A stretch of DNA of 34,873 nucleotides from Burkholderiaceae bacterium (GTDB lineage Bacteria > Pseudomonadota > Gammaproteobacteria > Burkholderiales > Burkholderiaceae_C). The translations under genes and the position numbers were made by a program. Location: positions 1-34,873 of the forward strand of contig JACSRM010000239.1 of assembly GCA_014879745.1 (NCBI GenBank), given 5' to 3'. Each line of letters begins with the position of its first letter. The stretch's first letter is position 1. The notes beneath the pieces were generated by a model. The model saw only the letters and a program-made list of their open reading frames with translations, did not search any database and was not told the origin of the DNA. Positions 9,340 to 19,856 of the stretch are shown here, piece by piece.

Positions 9340-10710
<1,371 letters not shown>

Positions 10711-10787
10711 CTAGGGTAGCCGATCGGATCGCCGATTGCATCCGCGACTGCCCGCGTATCGCGCCGCCTCCCGAGCCCGGCGAAGGG

Positions 10788-11444
10788 CTATCCGCCGTGC
10801 GTCAGCGCCGCCTTGTGCCGCGCCCGCCAGGCGCCGAACATCACGATCAGCCCGGGGATCAGGATCGCCGCCCAGATGATCTTGTCCAGATTCTCCTGCA
10901 CCCACGGCAGGTTGCCGAAGAAGTAGCCCGCGGTCGCGATGCCGCCCACCCACAGCACGGCGCCGCCGATGTTGTAGAGCGTGAAGGTGCTGCGCGACAT
11001 CTCGGCGACCCCGGCGACGAACGGGGCGAAGGTGCGCAAGAAGGGCAGGAAGCGCGCGACGACGATCGTGATGCCGCCGTACGTCTCGTAGAACGCGTGC
11101 GCGCGATCGAAGGCGTGCTTGTTGAACCAGCGCGAGTTTTCCCAGCCGAAGACGCGCGGCCCGAAGTAGCGGCCGATCGAATAGTTGCACTGGTCGCCGA
11201 GGATCGCCGCCGCCGTCAGCAGCGCGATCGACAACGGCAGGTTCATCATGCCCAGGCCGCACATCGCGCCGACGACGAACAGCAGCGAATCCCCGGGCAG
11301 AAAGGGCATCACGACGACGCCGGTCTCGACGAAGATGATCAGGAACAGCAGCGCGTAGACCCAGGTGCCGTAGTTCTGCACGAACTCGAACAGGTGGCGG
11401 TCGACGTGCAGGATGAAATCGATCAGGTAGGCAATGAATTCCAT
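10788..11444 (-). CDS. DedA family membrane protein
   Basis: MEFIAYLIDFILHVDRHLFEFVQNYGTWVYALLFLIIFVETGVVVMPFLPGDSLLFVVGAMCG...FLPFLRTFAPFVAGVAEM: DedA/SNARE-associated signature. Confidence 0.95.
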   Translation of the reverse strand: MEFIAYLIDFILHVDRHLFEFVQNYGTWVYALLFLIIFVETGVVVMPFLPGDSLLFVVGAMCGLGMMNLPLSIALLTAAAILGDQCNYSIGRYFGPRVFGWENSRWFNKHAFDRAHAFYETYGGITIVVARFLPFLRTFAPFVAGVAEMSRSTFTLYNIGGAVLWVGGIATAGYFFGNLPWVQENLDKIIWAAILIPGLIVMFGAWRARHKAALTHGG

Positions 11445-11492
11445 GGCGGCGCATTATCGGGGCGCGGCCGCGCCTTCCTACAATGCGCGACG

Positions 11493-13310
11493 ATGCTCTC
11501 GCCAAACAATGCCCAGCGCCGGGCGATCCGCGAACTGCCCGATGAACTCGTGAGCCAGATCGCGGCCGGCGAGGTCGTCGAGCGTCCGGCCTCGGTGGTT
11601 CGCGAGCTGCTCGACAACGCGCTCGATGCCGGCGCGACCGAGGTCACGGTGCGCCTCGCCGGCGGCGGCGTGCGCTCGATCGTCGTCGAGGACAACGGCG
11701 CGGGCATCGCGGCGGACGAACTCGCGCTCGCCTTGCGCCGCCATGCGACGAGCAAGATCGCAAGCCTCGCCGACCTCGAGAGCGTCGCGACGATGGGCTT
11801 TCGCGGCGAGGCGCTGGCGGCGATCGCGTCGGTCGCCGAACTCTCGATCACGAGCCGCGCCGCGGGCGCGCCGCTGGCGATGCGCATCGACGCCCGCAGC
11901 GGCGAACTCGCCCCCGCGGCGCGCGCGACCGGCACGAGCGTCGAGGTGCGCGAACTTTTCTTCGCGACGCCGGCGCGGCGCAAGTTCCTGAAGACCGAGC
12001 ACACCGAACTGGCGCACGCGCTCGAGGCGGTGCGCCGCCACGCGCTCGCGCGGCCCGATGTGAGCTTCGCCGTCTGGCACGACGGCAAGCTGCTGCAGCA
12101 ATGGCGCGCCGTCGCGGGTGATGCGGGGCAGCGCACGCGCGATGTGCTGGGCGAGGATTTCGTCGCCCACAGCCGCACGGTCGATCTCGACCTGGGCCTG
12201 CTGCGCATCAGCGGACGGGCCGGCACGGCCGATGCCGCGCGCGCGCGTGCCGACCATCAATACCTCTACGTCAACGGCCGCTTCGTGCGCGACCGGCTGC
12301 TCGCGCACGGCGTGCGCGCGGCCTACGAGGATGTGCTGCACGGTGCGCGCCAGCCGAGCTATCTGATCCATATCGATATCGCGCCCGACAGCGTCGACGT
12401 GAACGTGCACCCGACGAAGATCGAGGTCAGGTTTCGCAATGCGCGCGAGGTGCACCAGGGTCTGCGCCACGCGGTCGAGACGGCGCTTGCGCCGACCCGC
12501 GCGCTGGACGAGGCACCCGGCGTGCGCGCGGCGGCCCATGGCGGGACACTGGCGGCCGGGGCGGCTGCGGTGCGGCGGCCGGCACCGGTCCAGGCCGGCC
12601 TCGCGCTCGAGCAGCTCGCGGTCCTGCACGCGCAGGAAGCGCCGGCTGCGTGGCGCGTCGATGCGCCGGCGGCTGCCGCAACGCAGGACCCGGCTGCCGC
12701 GGACGATGCGGCGCTGCCGTCCGGCGCGTGGCCGCTCGGACGCGCGCTGGCGCAGCTCGGCGGCGTCTACGTGCTGGCCGAGAACGAGGCCGGACTCGTC
12801 ATCGTCGATATGCACGCCGCGCACGAGCGCGTCGTCTACGAGCGGCTGAAGGCGGGCATCGAGGCGAGCGGCATCGAGACGCAGGCGCTGCTGATCCCGC
12901 TCGTCTTCGCCGCCACCGCGCAGGAGATCGCGACCGCGGAATCGCAGGCCGAGAATCTGCACGCCCTCGGGCTCGACGTGGCGCCGCTTTCTGCCGGCAG
13001 GCTTGCGCTGCGCAGCCTGCCCGGGCTGCTTGCCGGCGGCGACGGCGTCGCGCTCGCGCGCAGCGTGCTCGCCGAACTCGCGCAGTACGACGCGACGAGC
13101 GTGCTGCAGCGGGCGCGCAACGAACTGCTCGCGACGATGGCCTGTCACGCCGCGGTGCGCGCGAACCGCCAGCTCACCCTGGCCGAGATGAATGCGCTGC
13201 TGCGCGACATGGAGCGCACCGAGCGCTCCGACCAGTGCAACCACGGGCGGCCGACGTGGCGCCAGCTGAGCCTGCGCGAACTGGACGCGCTCTTCATGCG
13301 CGGGCGCTGA
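11493..13310 (+). CDS. mutL: DNA mismatch repair protein MutL
   Basis: IRELPDELVSQIAAGEVVERPASVVRELLDNALDAGATEV..., GFRGEALAAIASV, VNVHPTKIEVRF, C-terminal CNHGRPTWRQLSLRELDALF. Confidence 0.96.
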   Translation: MLSPNNAQRRAIRELPDELVSQIAAGEVVERPASVVRELLDNALDAGATEVTVRLAGGGVRSIVVEDNGAGIAADELALALRRHATSKIASLADLESVATMGFRGEALAAIASVAELSITSRAAGAPLAMRIDARSGELAPAARATGTSVEVRELFFATPARRKFLKTEHTELAHALEAVRRHALARPDVSFAVWHDGKLLQQWRAVAGDAGQRTRDVLGEDFVAHSRTVDLDLGLLRISGRAGTADAARARADHQYLYVNGRFVRDRLLAHGVRAAYEDVLHGARQPSYLIHIDIAPDSVDVNVHPTKIEVRFRNAREVHQGLRHAVETALAPTRALDEAPGVRAAAHGGTLAAGAAAVRRPAPVQAGLALEQLAVLHAQEAPAAWRVDAPAAAATQDPAAADDAALPSGAWPLGRALAQLGGVYVLAENEAGLVIVDMHAAHERVVYERLKAGIEASGIETQALLIPLVFAATAQEIATAESQAENLHALGLDVAPLSAGRLALRSLPGLLAGGDGVALARSVLAELAQYDATSVLQRARNELLATMACHAAVRANRQLTLAEMNALLRDMERTERSDQCNHGRPTWRQLSLRELDALFMRGR

Positions 13311-13390
13311 GCGGCGCATCCGGCCTGCGGCGGCCCTGCATTCGCGGTCGCGCAAGAGTAGGATTTCAGCTCCTTCACCTAGGAGCCATC

Positions 13391-14734
13391 ATGAAAGCCT
13401 ACGCAAAGCGATTGTTGCTCGCCGCTGCCGCCTTCATCGCGGTGGGGGCCGGTCCGATTCATCTCGCCAATGCCGACGAGACCTGCAATTCTCCCTACAT
13501 GACGGGCCTGATCAAGGGCCAGGAGCAGTTCCTCCATGTCTGGACGCTCGGCGTCAAGGGCCTGGGCGACGGCTCGGACAAGCTCGTGACGGTCGACGTC
13601 CGCCCCGGCAGCAAGACCTTCGGCACCGTGATCCATTCGGTCTCGGTCGGCGGGCGCGGCGAGGCGCATCACATGGGCTTCACCGACGACCGCAAGTTCC
13701 TCTGGGCCGGGCGGCTGGACGACAACAAGATCTTCGTCTTCGATGTCGGCACCGACCCGAGCAAACCCAAGCTCGTCAACACGATCGCCAACTTCGAGAG
13801 CAAGACCGGCTTCGTCGGACCGCACACCTTCTACGCGCTGCCGGGCCGGATGATGGTGCAGGGGCTGTCGAATTCGAAGGATCACGGCGGTGTGACCGGT
13901 ATCGCGATCTACAACAACAAGGGCGGCTTCGTCTCGGCGCATCCGATGCCGGTCGGCATGAAGGAGATCGGCGGCGGCGACGGCTACGGCTATGACATCG
14001 GCATCAACCCGCAGAAGAACGCGATGCTCACGTCGAGCTTCACCGGCTGGACCAACTACATGATGGACCTCGGCACGCTCGTCAAGGACGCCAACGCGAT
14101 GAAGAATTTCGGCAACACGATGGTGATGTGGGACCTCAAGGCGATGAAGCCGATCAAGGTCTTCGACGTGCCGGGCGCGCCGCTCGAGATCCGCTGGTCG
14201 CTCGCCGAAGGCGACAACTGGGCGATCACGGCATCGGCGCTCACGTCCAAGCTGTGGCTCGTGAAGCAGGACGCGGCGGGCCAGTGGCAGGCGAAGGAGG
14301 TGGCGACGATCGGCGACCCGGCGAAGATCCCGCTGCCGGTGGACATCTCGATCACCGCCGACGGCAAGGGCCTGTGGGTCAACACCTTCATGGACGGCAC
14401 GACGCGCTACTTCGACCTCGCCAACCCCGAGGCGCCGAAGCAGACCTACGCGAAAGTGACCGGCAAGCAGGTCAACATGGTGTCGCAGAGCTGGGACGGC
14501 AAGCGCGTCTACATCACGTCGTCGTTGCTCGCCAACTGGGACAAGAAGGGCGACGACAACGAGCAGGCGCTGAAGGGCTACAGCTGGGACGGCAAGGAGT
14601 TGACGCAGGTCTTCGAGGTCGACTTCGCCAAGCTCGGCCTCGGCCGCGCGCACCACATGAAGTTCACGGCGAAGACGAACGCGCAGGCGGCGGCCGGAGG
14701 CGCGGCGGTGCAAGTCGCGGCGACCGCGCGTTGA
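13391..14734 (+). CDS. mtoX: SBP56-family methanethiol oxidase with Sec-type signal peptide
   Basis: MKAYAKRLLLAAAAFIAVGAGPIHLANADETCNSPYMTGLIKGQEQFLHVWTLGVKG...; SBP56 beta-propeller-type sequence (YDIGINPQKNAMLTSSFTGWTNY); followed by SCO and MauG genes. Confidence 0.88.
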   Translation: MKAYAKRLLLAAAAFIAVGAGPIHLANADETCNSPYMTGLIKGQEQFLHVWTLGVKGLGDGSDKLVTVDVRPGSKTFGTVIHSVSVGGRGEAHHMGFTDDRKFLWAGRLDDNKIFVFDVGTDPSKPKLVNTIANFESKTGFVGPHTFYALPGRMMVQGLSNSKDHGGVTGIAIYNNKGGFVSAHPMPVGMKEIGGGDGYGYDIGINPQKNAMLTSSFTGWTNYMMDLGTLVKDANAMKNFGNTMVMWDLKAMKPIKVFDVPGAPLEIRWSLAEGDNWAITASALTSKLWLVKQDAAGQWQAKEVATIGDPAKIPLPVDISITADGKGLWVNTFMDGTTRYFDLANPEAPKQTYAKVTGKQVNMVSQSWDGKRVYITSSLLANWDKKGDDNEQALKGYSWDGKELTQVFEVDFAKLGLGRAHHMKFTAKTNAQAAAGGAAVQVAATAR

Positions 14735-15432
14735 CGCGGCACTGGCGCCTTGCGCTGCTGCTCGCGGCGTGCGGCGCGGCGCAGGCGGCGCAGGAGCAGC
14801 CGGCGGTGCGGGCGCCGGTGCAGGATTTCGTCGCCCCCGCGCCCGGCAGCTACGCGCTGCCGGTGATCCAGGACGGCGCCGACGGCTGGGTGCTCGAGCG
14901 CAACTGGCTGCCGCGCCGGCTGGCCACCTATACGCACGGCGCGATCACGTTGCTGTCGTTCGTCTACACCTACTGCAGCGACCCGATCGGCTGCCCGCTG
15001 GCGTATGCGACCTTCGATACCGTCAAGCGCCAGGTGCTGGCCGACCCGGCGCTGCGCGGCAAGGTGCGGCTGGTGAGCCTTTCGTTCGACCCGGGCAACG
15101 ATACGCCCGATGCGATGCAGCGCTATGGCGGCGCGAACGCGAACGACCGCCAAGTGCCGTGGCACTTCCTGACGACCTACTCGACCTATTTCCTGGCGCC
15201 CATCCTCGACGCCTTCGGCCAGGATGTCGAGGTCGAGCGCGACTCTAGCGGTGCGCCGACGCGGATGCGAACGCACATGCTCAAGGTCTTCCTGCTCGAT
15301 GCGCGCGGCCGGGTGCGCGAGATCTACAGCGTCGCATTCCTGCAGCCGCAGGTGATCGTCAACGATATCAAGACGCTCGCGCTCGAGACCCGCGGCCCGG
15401 CGCTGTCGACCGCGCAAGCAGGGTCGCGATGA
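14731..15432 (+). CDS. SCO1/SenC family copper-chaperone-like protein
   Basis: TTG start overlaps mtoX TGA (TTGA). Signal peptide MTRHWRLALLLAACGAAQA; thioredoxin-like LLSFVYTYCSDPIGCPLAYATFDTVKRQV...KVRLVSLSFDPGNDTPDAMQRYG; THMLKVFLLD. Confidence 0.85.
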   Translation: MTRHWRLALLLAACGAAQAAQEQPAVRAPVQDFVAPAPGSYALPVIQDGADGWVLERNWLPRRLATYTHGAITLLSFVYTYCSDPIGCPLAYATFDTVKRQVLADPALRGKVRLVSLSFDPGNDTPDAMQRYGGANANDRQVPWHFLTTYSTYFLAPILDAFGQDVEVERDSSGAPTRMRTHMLKVFLLDARGRVREIYSVAFLQPQVIVNDIKTLALETRGPALSTAQAGSR

Positions 15433-16577
15433 CGCTGCGCCGCGGCGCGAGGTGCGGGCTCGCCGCGGTCGCGGCGGCCGCCTTGCAGGCCTGCACACCG
15501 GCCAGCGAGCCGGCCGATGCCGGCGACGCGTTCGGATTGCCGCCGCTCGTGCGGCCGGCAGGCAGCGCCGGCAACGCAGCGCAGATCGAACTCGGCCGCA
15601 AGCTGTTCTTCGATCGCCGGCTGGCGTTCAACGGTGTGATGTCGTGCGCGATGTGCCACGTGCCCGAGGAGGGGTTCACCTCGCATGCGTCGAAGACGGC
15701 GGTCGGCATCGAGGGCAAGAGCCTGCAGCGCAATGCGCCGACGCTGCTGAATGTCGCCTGGCAGACGACGTTCTTCCACGACGGACGCGAGACTTCGCTT
15801 GCGACGCAGGCCTGGATGCCGTTGCTGCATCCGGACGAGATGGCGAACCCGTCGATCGGCTTCGTGTTGCAGCGAATCCGCGCGCTGCCCGACTACGACG
15901 GCCTGTTCGAGCGCGCCTTCGGCGGCGCCGGGCCGGGCATGGAGTCGCTCGGCGCGGCGCTCGCGGCATTCGAGACGACGCTGGTCGCGGCGGATTCGCG
16001 CTTCGATCGCTGGCGCTATCGCGGCGAGGCGGCTGCGCTCAACGCGCAGGAGCAGCAGGGCTTTGCCATCTTCACCGGCAAGGGCCGATGCGCCGCCTGC
16101 CACGAGGTCGGCGCAACGAGCGCGCTATTCACCGACGGCGGCTTTCACGTCACCGGTGCCGGGCAGGCCGCGTCGGGCGAGGATGCCGCGATCATCGTGC
16201 CGCTGGCGCCGGGCGTGCAGACGGTGCTGCGCGGCGCGCACCTGGCCGGGTTTCCCGAGACTGCGGCACCCGACCTCGGCCGCTTCGAAATCACGCTGGA
16301 TCCCGCCGACCGCTTTGCGTTCAAGACGCCTGGCCTGCGCAACGTCGCCCGCACCGCACCCTACATGCACGACGGGTCGCTCGCCACGCTCGAAGCGGTG
16401 GTTGACTTCTACGACCGCGGCGGCGGCGACGTGGGCGACAAGGACGCGCGTATCGTGCCGCTCGGCCTGTCGGCGCACGAGAAGCAGGCGCTCGTCGCCT
16501 TCCTGCGTTCGCTCGACGGCGCGCGCGTCGATGCCTTGGCGGCGCGCAGCCGCCCGCAGGAAAGCGCGGCGCGTTGA
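15429..16577 (+). CDS. MauG/CcpA-type di-heme cytochrome c peroxidase
   Basis: Two CxxCH motifs (CAMCH, CAACH); LGRKLFFDRRLAFNGVMSCAMCHVPEEGFT, FKTPGLRNVARTAPYMHDGSLATLEAVVDFYDRGG; lipobox-like LQAC. ATGA overlap with SCO gene. Confidence 0.92.
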   Translation: MTLRRGARCGLAAVAAAALQACTPASEPADAGDAFGLPPLVRPAGSAGNAAQIELGRKLFFDRRLAFNGVMSCAMCHVPEEGFTSHASKTAVGIEGKSLQRNAPTLLNVAWQTTFFHDGRETSLATQAWMPLLHPDEMANPSIGFVLQRIRALPDYDGLFERAFGGAGPGMESLGAALAAFETTLVAADSRFDRWRYRGEAAALNAQEQQGFAIFTGKGRCAACHEVGATSALFTDGGFHVTGAGQAASGEDAAIIVPLAPGVQTVLRGAHLAGFPETAAPDLGRFEITLDPADRFAFKTPGLRNVARTAPYMHDGSLATLEAVVDFYDRGGGDVGDKDARIVPLGLSAHEKQALVAFLRSLDGARVDALAARSRPQESAAR

Positions 16578-16586
16578 CGTGCGTCG

Positions 16587-17618
16587 TCAGCCTCTTCGTA
16601 CCCGCACGCTGTAGTCGCCGACACCGCTGCTGCGGTTGTAGTGCCGCACCTGCACGTAGTAGGTGCCCGGAATGAGCGCGCCGGCGATGCGGGCGTTGAA
16701 GCCGGTGCCGCTGTCGTCGTCCTCGGCGATCACGTCGGTCTGGCTGTCGGGGCCGAACAGCTTCATCACCAGATCGGTCGGGCCCTTGGTGTCGATCACG
16801 TGCTTGCCACCTTCGGCGACGGTGAAGCGGAACAGATCCTCCTCGCCCGGCTTGCCGATCGCCGCCTTGGTGCGGCGTGCGGCGTTGACCTTCAGTTCGA
16901 CCGCGTCGTCCACCGTCGGCGCGGTCTTCGGGTAGGCCTGGGCGCTCGCGATGAAGCCGCGGTCGAGCGCCGACAGCACGTCGTTCGCCTCGGTGCCGAT
17001 GCCGTTCAGGGTCCAGCTCGCGGGGAAAAAGTACAGCATGATCGACTTCGGGTCGAACTGCGTGCCGCGGATCTGGTCGACGCTGTACTTCTCGAGCACG
17101 TTGTGGCGGATCGTCGCCTCGTCCCAGTTGTTCGGCGGCCCCGACAGGTTCTGGATCACGACCGCTTCGTTCCACTCGATGCCGCCGGCCGGGTTCTGGT
17201 GCTCGTGGCCGAGACCGATCGCGTGGCCGAATTCGTGCGCCGCCGTGCCGCCGTCCATGAAGCCGAGGTTCATCGTCGGCTGGTTGAGCGGGATGTTGCG
17301 GTTGTCGGTGCCGATATACGACCAGGCACCGTCGTCCGGGTCGAAGGCGATGCGGATCTCGGCGTCCGGCGCATCGTTGAAATCGAAGTGGAGGTTGGCG
17401 ACGTCGGACCACCAGCCCGCCTGCTCGCGCGCCTTGGCCTGCTGCGCGGCACTGCCGCCGAGAAAGCGCACGCGCAGCGTGCTGCCGTTCATCCACATCT
17501 TGCTCGCGACCAATATGGCACGCACGCTGCCGCTGCGGCGGATGGTCGATTGGAAACGGTGCGTTTCGGCCGGCAACAGCCGGTCGATGCAGACCTTGGG
17601 TCGGGTTTGGGTAGCCAT
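16587..17618 (-). CDS. Matrixin/metzincin-type zinc metalloprotease with C-terminal PPC-like domain
   Basis: HEFGHAIGLGHEHQNP (HExxHxxGxxH); SIMLYFFP Met-turn-like; C-terminal DLFRFTVAEGGKHVIDTKG...GTYYVQVRHYNRSSGVGDYSVRVRRG. Confidence 0.85.
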   Translation of the reverse strand: MATQTRPKVCIDRLLPAETHRFQSTIRRSGSVRAILVASKMWMNGSTLRVRFLGGSAAQQAKAREQAGWWSDVANLHFDFNDAPDAEIRIAFDPDDGAWSYIGTDNRNIPLNQPTMNLGFMDGGTAAHEFGHAIGLGHEHQNPAGGIEWNEAVVIQNLSGPPNNWDEATIRHNVLEKYSVDQIRGTQFDPKSIMLYFFPASWTLNGIGTEANDVLSALDRGFIASAQAYPKTAPTVDDAVELKVNAARRTKAAIGKPGEEDLFRFTVAEGGKHVIDTKGPTDLVMKLFGPDSQTDVIAEDDDSGTGFNARIAGALIPGTYYVQVRHYNRSSGVGDYSVRVRRG

Positions 17619-17737: not shown

Positions 17738-18298
17738 TCAGTGGCTGTCCTGGTACATCGGATAGAGCGTCTTTTCCTCGCGCGCGATGCGGTCACCCAG
17801 GGTGCGGCCGATCTCGGTCCACACCGGCAGGAAGGCGCCTTGCTTGGCCGGCGATCGGCCGAGATCCTTCTGGCCGTCGAGGAAGCTCATCACGACCTTG
17901 CCGATCGAATTCATCTCGGACGAGAAGCTCTTCATCATGTCCATGCTGTCCGGATCGCCCGCGATCTGCTGCTTCAGATACGTATACAGGCGGATGCTTT
18001 CGCTCAGCAGATGGTCGGTGAGCGCGGTCCGGAAGGTCGTCAGCGTCGTTTCGACCTCGGGCCAATGCCCCGCTTCCGCCGCCTGTTTCGCGCGCGCGAA
18101 GAGGCCGAGCAATTGACGGTGGTCTTCGTGATACTGGCGGATCAGATCCGGGTTGTAGCTGATGCCCCGGGTCTCGCGCGGTGCCGGCTCGAGCGGCAGA
18201 TCGGCCGCCGGTGCGGGCGTGGGTGCGATTGGCGCCGCCGGGCGAACCGGCGCCGGCGGCACGGTGCGGGCGGACCTTGTTTTCAGCCAGTCGAACAT
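17738..18298 (-). CDS. Hemerythrin-like (HHE) domain protein with Pro/Ala-rich N-terminus
   Basis: MFDWLKTRSARTVPPAPVRPAAPIAPTPAPAAD...LIRQYHEDHRQLLGLFARAKQAAEAGHW...LTDHLLSESIRLYTYLKQQI...REEKTLYPMYQ. Confidence 0.75.
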   Translation of the reverse strand: MFDWLKTRSARTVPPAPVRPAAPIAPTPAPAADLPLEPAPRETRGISYNPDLIRQYHEDHRQLLGLFARAKQAAEAGHWPEVETTLTTFRTALTDHLLSESIRLYTYLKQQIAGDPDSMDMMKSFSSEMNSIGKVVMSFLDGQKDLGRSPAKQGAFLPVWTEIGRTLGDRIAREEKTLYPMYQDSH

Positions 18299-18492
18299 TT
18301 CAGCTCCTCGAAGCCCTTGCAATCGAAATGCCTGCGGGATCGCGGCGGGGAGTGTATTCAGCGCCAGCCGCGCCGTGATCGAATCGGCGTGCCCGCGCCG
18401 CGCCAGGCTGCGACTTTTGGCCGCTTCGTGCGATCGTCCCGGTTACGCGCCGCAACCGTCTTGTCGCAACGCAAGCTTCGCCGCATTGCGCG

Positions 18493-19284
18493 TCACGACC
18501 GCGGCGCAAGCGAGTCGATCTCGGCGTCGCTGAAGCCGGCGGCGCGGCGGGCGCCGATATTGAAGGGCGGGCGCGGCCGCGGTGCGCCGTGGCGCGCGCT
18601 CAGCAGCGCGTAGTGCGCGCCCGGGTCGAGCCCGGCGCGTTCGCAAAGCCAGCGATACCAGTGGTTGCCGATCGCGACGTGGCCGATCTCGTCGCGCAGG
18701 ATGATGTCCAGAATCTCGACCGCGCGCGTGTCGCCGGCTCGTGCGAACTTCGCCTGCAGCGGCGGCGTCGCATCGAGCCCGCGCGCCTCGAGCGTGCGCG
18801 GCACGAGCGCCATGCGCGCCGTGATATCGGCGCGCGTGCGCTCGACCATCGTCCACAGGCCGTCGTGGGCGTCGAAGTCGCCATAGTCGTGGCCGAGCGA
18901 TTGCAGATGCGTGCGCAGCAGGCGAAAGTGCAGCGCTTCCTCGCTCGCGACGCGCAGCCAGTCGCGATAGAAGCCGGGCGGCATCGCGGGGAACCGCCAG
19001 ACGGCGTCGAGCGCGAGATTGATTGCATTGAACTCGATATGCGCGATCGCGTGCAGCAGCGCGGCGCGCCCTTCGAGCGTCGCCGCGGAGCGCGAAGGGA
19101 CGTCCCTGGGCGCGACCAGGCGCGGCCGCGGCGGCCGCCCGGGCAGGTCGGCGCTGCATGTGATCGGCTCGTGCGGGTCGATCGCCTGGCGCGCGAGCGA
19201 CGCAAAGAGCGCGCCGGCCTGCGCCGCCTTCTCGGTCGGGTCGGCAAGGGACAAGACCTCGAGGGCTCGCCGGCGGGGGTTCAT
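18493..19284 (-). CDS. DUF455 family (ferritin-like) protein
   Basis: AALLHAIAHIEFNAINLALDAVWRFPAMPPGFYRDWLRVASEEALHFRLLRTHLQSLGHDYGDFDAHDGLW...RDEIGHVAIGNHWYRW. Confidence 0.9.
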   Translation of the reverse strand: MNPRRRALEVLSLADPTEKAAQAGALFASLARQAIDPHEPITCSADLPGRPPRPRLVAPRDVPSRSAATLEGRAALLHAIAHIEFNAINLALDAVWRFPAMPPGFYRDWLRVASEEALHFRLLRTHLQSLGHDYGDFDAHDGLWTMVERTRADITARMALVPRTLEARGLDATPPLQAKFARAGDTRAVEILDIILRDEIGHVAIGNHWYRWLCERAGLDPGAHYALLSARHGAPRPRPPFNIGARRAAGFSDAEIDSLAPRS

Positions 19285-19331
19285 TCGTAAAATTGTCCGC
19301 TCACGAATCAGGAAGCCGAACAAGGATACCG

Positions 19332-19856
19332 ATGGCCCTCTATCAGATCGACGACTTCGTGCCGAGGATCGCCGGCAGCGCCTGGGTCGCCGAGACCGCG
19401 CAGGTCATCGGCCGCGTCGAGATGGCGGCCGATTCGAGCGTCTGGTTCGGCGCCGTGCTGCGCGGCGATACCGAGAATATCCGCATCGGTATCGGCTCCA
19501 ATATCCAGGACAACAGCGTCGTCCATGCCGACCCGGGCTTTCCGGCGCTGGTGGGCGACCATGTGACGGTCGGCCATCTGGTGATGCTGCACGGCTGCAT
19601 CGTCGGCGACAACACCCTGATCGGCATGCAGGCGGTGGTGCTCAACGGCGCGAAGATCGGGCGCAACTGCATCGTCGGCGCCGGTGCGTTGATCGCTGCC
19701 GGCAAGGAGTTTGCGGACGGTTCGCTGATCGTCGGCAGTCCGGCGCGCGTTGCGCGCCAGCTCACCCCCGAGCAGATCGCCGGCATCCGCTTCGGCAGCG
19801 AGCACTACATGGCGAATGCGCGTCGCTTCCGCGCCGCCTGCCGGCGCGTCGGATGA
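19332..19856 (+). CDS. Gamma carbonic anhydrase family protein
   Basis: Left-handed beta-helix hexapeptides: SVWFGAVLRGDTENIRIGIGSNIQDNSVVHADPG...VTVGHLVMLHGCIVGDNTLIGMQAVVLNGAKIGRNCIVGAGALI. Confidence 0.95.
   Translation: MALYQIDDFVPRIAGSAWVAETAQVIGRVEMAADSSVWFGAVLRGDTENIRIGIGSNIQDNSVVHADPGFPALVGDHVTVGHLVMLHGCIVGDNTLIGMQAVVLNGAKIGRNCIVGAGALIAAGKEFADGSLIVGSPARVARQLTPEQIAGIRFGSEHYMANARRFRAACRRVG

Follow-up and report, generated by a model that had tools for sequence, protein, structure and literature searches.

What does a MauG-like di-haem protein do beside a methanethiol oxidase? The part that MauG plays in methanethiol oxidation has been a question since 2017, when Eyice et al. purified methanethiol oxidase (MTO) from Hyphomicrobium sp. 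VS, established its need for copper, identified its gene, mtoX, reported that many bacteria have the order mtoX-SCO1/senC-mauG, and proposed that MauG makes a tryptophan tryptophylquinone (TTQ) in the enzyme (PMC5739008). We examined an operon of this kind in a 34,873-nucleotide stretch of DNA from a Burkholderiaceae bacterium (the whole stretch is called the window below) and compared it with related loci. Because the gene order and the idea of a MauG-made tryptophylquinone were both published in 2017 (PMC5739008), the operon itself is not new in kind; it is an ordinary representative of an already published operon type. What is new here is that mauG is tied to three residues of MtoX, those at positions 165, 220 and 225. 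No published link of mauG with these residues was found in the literature searched, and nothing later than 2019 on MtoX with mauG came up in full-text searches.

The three genes lie head to tail on the + strand and are joined by two 4-nt overlaps, TTGA being common to the mtoX stop and the SCO start and ATGA to the SCO stop and the MauG-like start (Table 1). By direct reading an AGGAG lies ahead of the mtoX ATG, at 13381-13385. An earlier, sequence-only reading had given the span of the operon, 13391-16577, exactly, had described both overlaps and had assigned the families that our profile searches matched (SBP56, SCO1-SenC and CCP_MauG); its identification of the SCO and MauG-like genes as published neighbours of mtoX also agrees with the literature (PMC5739008). 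The order mtoX-SCO-mauG was present in 42 of 81 loci compared, namely the 80 nearest loci and the window, which is counted among the 42. In many relatives, too, start codons that would give such a 4-nt overlap are available at both junctions, so tight packing is a family trait, and the overlaps make translational coupling of the three genes plausible. Neither a sigma-70-type promoter nor an intrinsic terminator was recognised between 13200 and 16800. Upstream, 80 nt separate mtoX from the end of a mutL-like gene (10611-13310, also on the + strand). Downstream follow genes for an astacin-like metalloprotease with a C-terminal PPC domain (16587-17618, - strand; 148 bits against NCBIfam AbsR1, far below the cut-off), a hemerythrin-domain protein (17738-18322, -), a DUF455 protein (18493-19323, -) and a gamma carbonic anhydrase-like hexapeptide protein (19293-19856, +), the last three with no evident link to methanethiol.

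Table 1. Genes, motifs and residues of the mtoX operon, in window coordinates (RpMTO, Ruegeria MTO).
Feature	Coordinates	Strand	Remark
mtoX, methanethiol oxidase (SBP56 family)	13391..14734	+	ATG to TGA, 447 aa
MtoX predicted signal peptide, residues 1-28 (...ANA/DETC)	13391..13474	+	direct reading
MtoX Cys32, sole cysteine, = RpMTO Cys28	13484..13486	+	alignment
MtoX His93-His94, proposed copper ligands, = RpMTO His88/89	13667..13672	+	invariant with and without mauG
MtoX His145, proposed copper ligand, = RpMTO His141	13823..13825	+	invariant with and without mauG
MtoX His165, MauG-linked, loop after second strand of blade 2, = RpMTO His161	13883..13885	+	H/N/F in 89/89 loci with mauG
MtoX Trp220, MauG-linked, candidate MauG target, = RpMTO Trp223	14048..14050	+	W in 89/89 loci with mauG
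MtoX Met225, MauG-linked, = RpMTO Met228	14063..14065	+	M in 89/89 loci with mauG
MtoX Trp383, second published TTQ candidate, = RpMTO Trp386	14537..14539	+	W in 31/31 mauG-less loci; not MauG-linked
MtoX His421, proposed copper ligand, = RpMTO His424	14651..14653	+	invariant with and without mauG
SCO1/SenC-family gene	14731..15432	+	TTG to TGA, 233 aa
SCO CX5C motif, Cys82...Cys88 (C-S-D-P-I-G-C)	14974..14994	+	usual form CX3C
MauG-like di-haem gene	15429..16577	+	ATG to TGA, 382 aa
First haem motif, C73-x-x-C76-H77	15645..15659	+	invariant
His117, against Trp of FWDGR in bacterial cytochrome c peroxidase 1iqc	15777..15779	+	alignment to 1iqc
Second haem motif, C221-x-x-C224-H225	16089..16103	+	invariant
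Tyr328, at axial Met position of peroxidases, MauG/BthA-type ligand	16410..16412	+	Met in 1iqc, Tyr in 6e1c

The product of the first gene matched the SBP56 family (E 9.9e-37) and passed the NCBIfam equivalog model for methanethiol oxidase, NF052453, with 758.4 bits against a cut-off of 650, which upholds the earlier identification of this SBP56 protein as MtoX. It had also been taken for an exported protein, and its predicted mature N-terminus, DETCNSPYMTGLIKG, is indeed similar to DETXNSPFTTALITG, which Edman sequencing gave for the Hyphomicrobium enzyme (PMC5739008). An AlphaFold2 model (pLDDT 91.3) had 2ece as its closest solved fold (TM 0.73). Alignment with RpMTO showed that the copper-type histidine set and the single cysteine are conserved, and this cysteine, Cys28, is catalytic in the Ruegeria enzyme (PMC10936201). 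Copper- and O2-dependent oxidation of methanethiol has been shown for the homologues in Hyphomicrobium and Ruegeria, and by homology we infer the same activity for the window MtoX. In the strand order of the model, residue 165 falls in a loop of blade 2, and blade 3 bears residues 220 and 225 in its corresponding loop; His93, His94 and His145 stand at the starts of inner strands. Such loops of a beta-propeller share a face with the inner-strand starts; from this topology, all three of residues 165, 220 and 225 would lie on the copper side of the propeller.

The SCO-family protein is predicted to be exported and matched PF02630 (SCO1-SenC) with 38 bits against a cut-off of 22.8 (E 2e-09). It departs from the CX3C pattern in the spacing of its cysteines and retains the distal histidine, His182. 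The five-residue spacing was found in 127 of 128 aligned SCO domains, and CX3C exceptions came from a Skermanella plasmid (CGDVCP) and from distant SBP56 loci. As the CX5C form occurs with and without mauG, we rejected it as a MauG-linked trait. An SCO gene was found beside nearly all close MtoX relatives, and copper is probably handed over by its product.

The third protein matched PF03150 (CCP_MauG; E 3.4e-49), and its closest solved relative was 6e1c (E 9.6e-43), which we take to be MbnH, the PDB naming it only 'Di-heme enzyme'. By the curated NCBIfam cut-offs the operon protein is neither MauG (TIGR03791, 230.4 bits, cut-off 443.85) nor MbnH (TIGR04039, 213.4 bits, cut-off 362.85). It has a tyrosine at the axial position of the second haem, as MauG does: Tyr328 was conserved in all 42 operon MauGs, and BthA and MauG require such a tyrosine for the bis-Fe(IV) state (PMC6405878). 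Histidine occupied position 117 in 51 of the 65 rows with a letter there; BthA, too, is without the canonical inter-haem tryptophan (PMC6405878). An LQAC sequence makes it possible that the MauG-like protein is a lipoprotein.

We then asked how regularly mauG accompanies mtoX. The first set, the 80 nearest loci and the window, held 42 loci with mauG, 31 with SCO and no mauG, all with ample downstream sequence, and 8 that end too early to tell; the mauG-less loci of this set shared no replacement gene after SCO. With later loci from the window's class and phylum, the Oxalobacteraceae, the Methylocapsa order and the Rokubacteria class, the final set came to 164 MtoX-type loci, 89 with mauG and 75 without, the latter including L245, which was scored mauG-less on a sequence that ends about 0.7 kb after mtoX. 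Sixty-five of the 75 mauG-less genomes were searched whole by profile, and operon-class MauG was absent from them: where an intact operon copy was present, the operon MauG profile mostly scored 502-560 bits (481 in G350), and in the mauG-less genomes it scored 348 bits at best. Di-haem matches at 322-348 bits were rejected as the missing MauG, being of a different class; three of these genes were inspected and had no mtoX nearby, one of them adjoining a metallophosphoesterase gene. Not every MtoX requires MauG. The sequence-only reading had called the three genes a complete module, and this has to be given up in general terms, since 75 of 164 loci lack mauG and 65 of these genomes were searched whole. 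The same reading had named activity of the purified enzyme without SCO and MauG as a result that would speak against it, and published work bears this out in part: Ruegeria MTO, produced in E. coli from a plasmid with mtoX as its only operon gene, broke down methanethiol (PMC10936201).

Some loci showed other arrangements. A SCO-MauG fusion lies beside mtoX in L152, L163, L168 and L172, followed by a second MauG-like gene, and in L161 mauG comes after mtoX, no SCO gene having been recognised in that stretch. Both mtoX and mauG of L204 (G1008, Oxalobacteraceae) are in pieces in different frames, apparently a decaying operon, and G887 holds mtoX remnants only.

Positions 165, 220 and 225 were picked on the first 80 loci by searching all columns, and the later loci served as the test. 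In the first set all 42 loci with mauG combined His165, Trp220 and Met225, and none of the 31 without it did. In a further comparison of all columns of the window MtoX, 225, 165 and 220 took the first three ranks, well ahead of the next column. Across the 164 loci, which are not independent of one another, the triad (Trp220, Met225 and His, Asn or Phe at 165) was found in every locus with mauG and in no mauG-less one (89/89 and 0/75), or in 78/78 and 0/69 after dereplication at 95% identity. Residue 165 was Asn or Phe in 7 loci with mauG, so His165 is not a strict metal ligand.

The later loci bore out the association group by group. From the window's class and phylum, all 35 loci with mauG had the triad and both loci without mauG lacked it. 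The new Oxalobacteraceae loci, where both states are present, agreed in 16 of 16 cases (triad in 6/6 with mauG, 0/10 without), and the Rhizobiales and Rokubacteria loci gave 6/6 with mauG and 0/31 without; L216, in an otherwise mauG-less Rokubacteria sample, had both motif and mauG. G350 carries two mtoX copies, and only the one beside mauG has the triad. In a plasmid collection, Ruegeria, which has mauG, showed H/W/M at 165/220/225; Skermanella (G/K/M) and Microvirga (H/F/R) had SCO and no mauG within 4 kb. Three loci carried the motif with no mauG in the expected place: a genome search found mauG divergently upstream for L167 (502 bits), and for L215 and L063, which end at contig edges, a different contig of the genome carried an operon-class gene (437 and 521 bits). 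Four further loci with the triad, L002, L009, L016 and L028, also end at contig edges; no operon-class mauG was found elsewhere in these draft genomes, and the loci, which reflect either missing contigs or true exceptions, were left out of the counts.

On the tree, mauG and the triad each change 7 times, and the independent pairs were concordant in 7 of 7 cases; branch support extends to only 4 of these pairs, and by a sign test the tree does not reach significance on its own. With a distant SBP56 outgroup, MtoX with SCO and without mauG probably came first, followed by one gain of mauG together with the triad and then by several losses. Loss of mauG appears to be followed by stepwise decay of the residues: the variants HWK, RWM, HWR and KWR, as well as fully drifted forms, were seen in mauG-less MtoX, and Trp220 and Met225 persist together without mauG in three loci (L060, L066 and L080).

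The three residues that track MauG probably mark the place on MtoX where it works. Our preferred reading, which we hold with moderate confidence, is that of a periplasmic MtoX operon in which the SCO protein gives copper, the MauG-like protein oxidises MtoX at Trp220, and MauG is an add-on. The action on Trp220 is suggested by the perfect co-inheritance. With two haems and an axial tyrosine as in the group of MauG, BthA and 6e1c, the protein would oxidise MtoX at Trp220, in a pocket that would also need Met225 and His, Asn or Phe at 165; a local modification of Trp220, for example to kynurenine, could then join Met225 and His165 in forming an additional copper site. In CorA/MopE a tryptophan is oxidised to kynurenine beside copper, and a di-haem protein is co-transcribed (PMC3912023). 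A counterpoint to any need for MauG is that Ruegeria MTO made in E. coli without it degraded methanethiol (PMC10936201).

A kynurenine/Met/His copper site would fit these observations, and so would a quinone linking Trp220 and Trp383. True MauG makes TTQ, and Trp220, the one of the two tryptophans that tracks MauG, is exactly the partner proposed for such a cofactor. Eyice et al. 2017, who put the cofactor forward, also reported mass and structure to be compatible with it (PMC5739008), and the proposal was repeated for Trp223 and Trp386 of the Ruegeria enzyme. However, Trp383 is invariant in 31 of 31 mauG-less loci, which points to another role for this residue, and TTQ leaves unexplained why Met225 and residue 165 track MauG as strongly as Trp220 does; for both reasons we favour a modification local to Trp220 and consider it rather unlikely that MauG builds TTQ here. 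The published conservation of these tryptophans across three domains, moreover, fails at Trp220 in mauG-less MtoX and in the Sulfolobus protein. Since most mauG-less MtoX are without Trp220, we rejected the view that TTQ is common to all MtoX.

MauG might instead be a peroxidase that clears the H2O2 formed by MtoX, with the three residues as its docking site and not a site of modification. The native Hyphomicrobium enzyme does yield H2O2 (PMC5739008), di-haem peroxidases are the parent family, and a docking patch would co-vary too. Yet the axial methionine of peroxidases is replaced by the invariant Tyr328, and this tyrosine is tied to bis-Fe(IV) chemistry (PMC6405878); docking should tolerate substitutions, and a set of Trp, Met and His suits chemistry better, all of which makes this account improbable. 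We think it very improbable that the pattern is an effect of lineage, in which mauG-less MtoX are divergent proteins with drifted loops and mauG has no functional link to the residues. The small number of independent pairs on supported branches and the variability, in mauG-less rows, of the loops that hold the three positions would fit such an effect, but the mixed states in the Oxalobacteraceae, L216 and the two mtoX copies of one genome speak against it, as do the predictions that held at L167, L215 and L063.

If MauG acts at Trp220 as we prefer, MtoX might exist in two forms: a plain copper form and a MauG-matured form in which Trp220 becomes a kynurenine, Trp-Met or Trp-His cofactor at a second copper or redox site. 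We offer this only tentatively and judge it rather more apt to be wrong than right. The native Hyphomicrobium enzyme, with a Km of 0.2-0.3 uM and a Vmax of about 16 umol/mg/min, gives H2S and H2O2 (PMC5739008), and the products of Ruegeria MTO made in E. coli from mtoX alone included sulfane sulfur but not H2O2 (PMC10936201). Because the Ruegeria protein carries the MauG-linked triad, this recombinant enzyme may have been unmatured; were the two-form reading true, the E. coli work would have seen the unmatured enzyme, which could explain its products. The matter is relevant to the dispute over which sulfur product is formed and to models of how methanethiol and DMSP are turned over, and it counsels caution, in that MtoX produced without MauG may differ from the native enzyme. 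Co-inheritance with named residues makes MauG's part directly testable, and the mauG-less MtoX of Massilia and its relatives provide natural controls.

Among known systems, the operons of Hyphomicrobium sp. VS and Ruegeria pomeroyi DSS-3 (L253) have the same three genes in the same order as the window, and Ruegeria MtoX has the same Cys, His, Trp and Met positions by alignment; the mauG gene of R. pomeroyi is SPOA0271. The Ruegeria operon has an IclR regulator upstream and an S-(hydroxymethyl)glutathione dehydrogenase downstream; neither is in the window, where the operon is instead flanked by mutL upstream and unrelated genes downstream. In Methylophaga, SCO-MauG fusions are induced during growth on DMS (PMC6548844). 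SBP56 proteins that come without SCO or MauG, SELENBP1 among them, share the fold and the copper-type histidines of MtoX, and human SELENBP1 is active as a recombinant protein given copper (PMC10362175); the SBP56 loci of this kind in our set (L180-L183) have no linked mauG and, unlike the window, no Trp220/Met225 motif. With MauG of the methylamine dehydrogenase (MADH) system the window protein has in common two haem c motifs and a tyrosine at the six-coordinate haem position, but it has His117 in place of the FWDGR tryptophan (1iqc), and its presumed target is a beta-propeller and not MADH. The MbnH/CorB-type partners likewise adjoin a copper protein with a conserved tryptophan near possible metal ligands; the target in the window is unrelated in fold to theirs, among which the kynurenine-bearing protein is CorA/MopE (PMC3912023).
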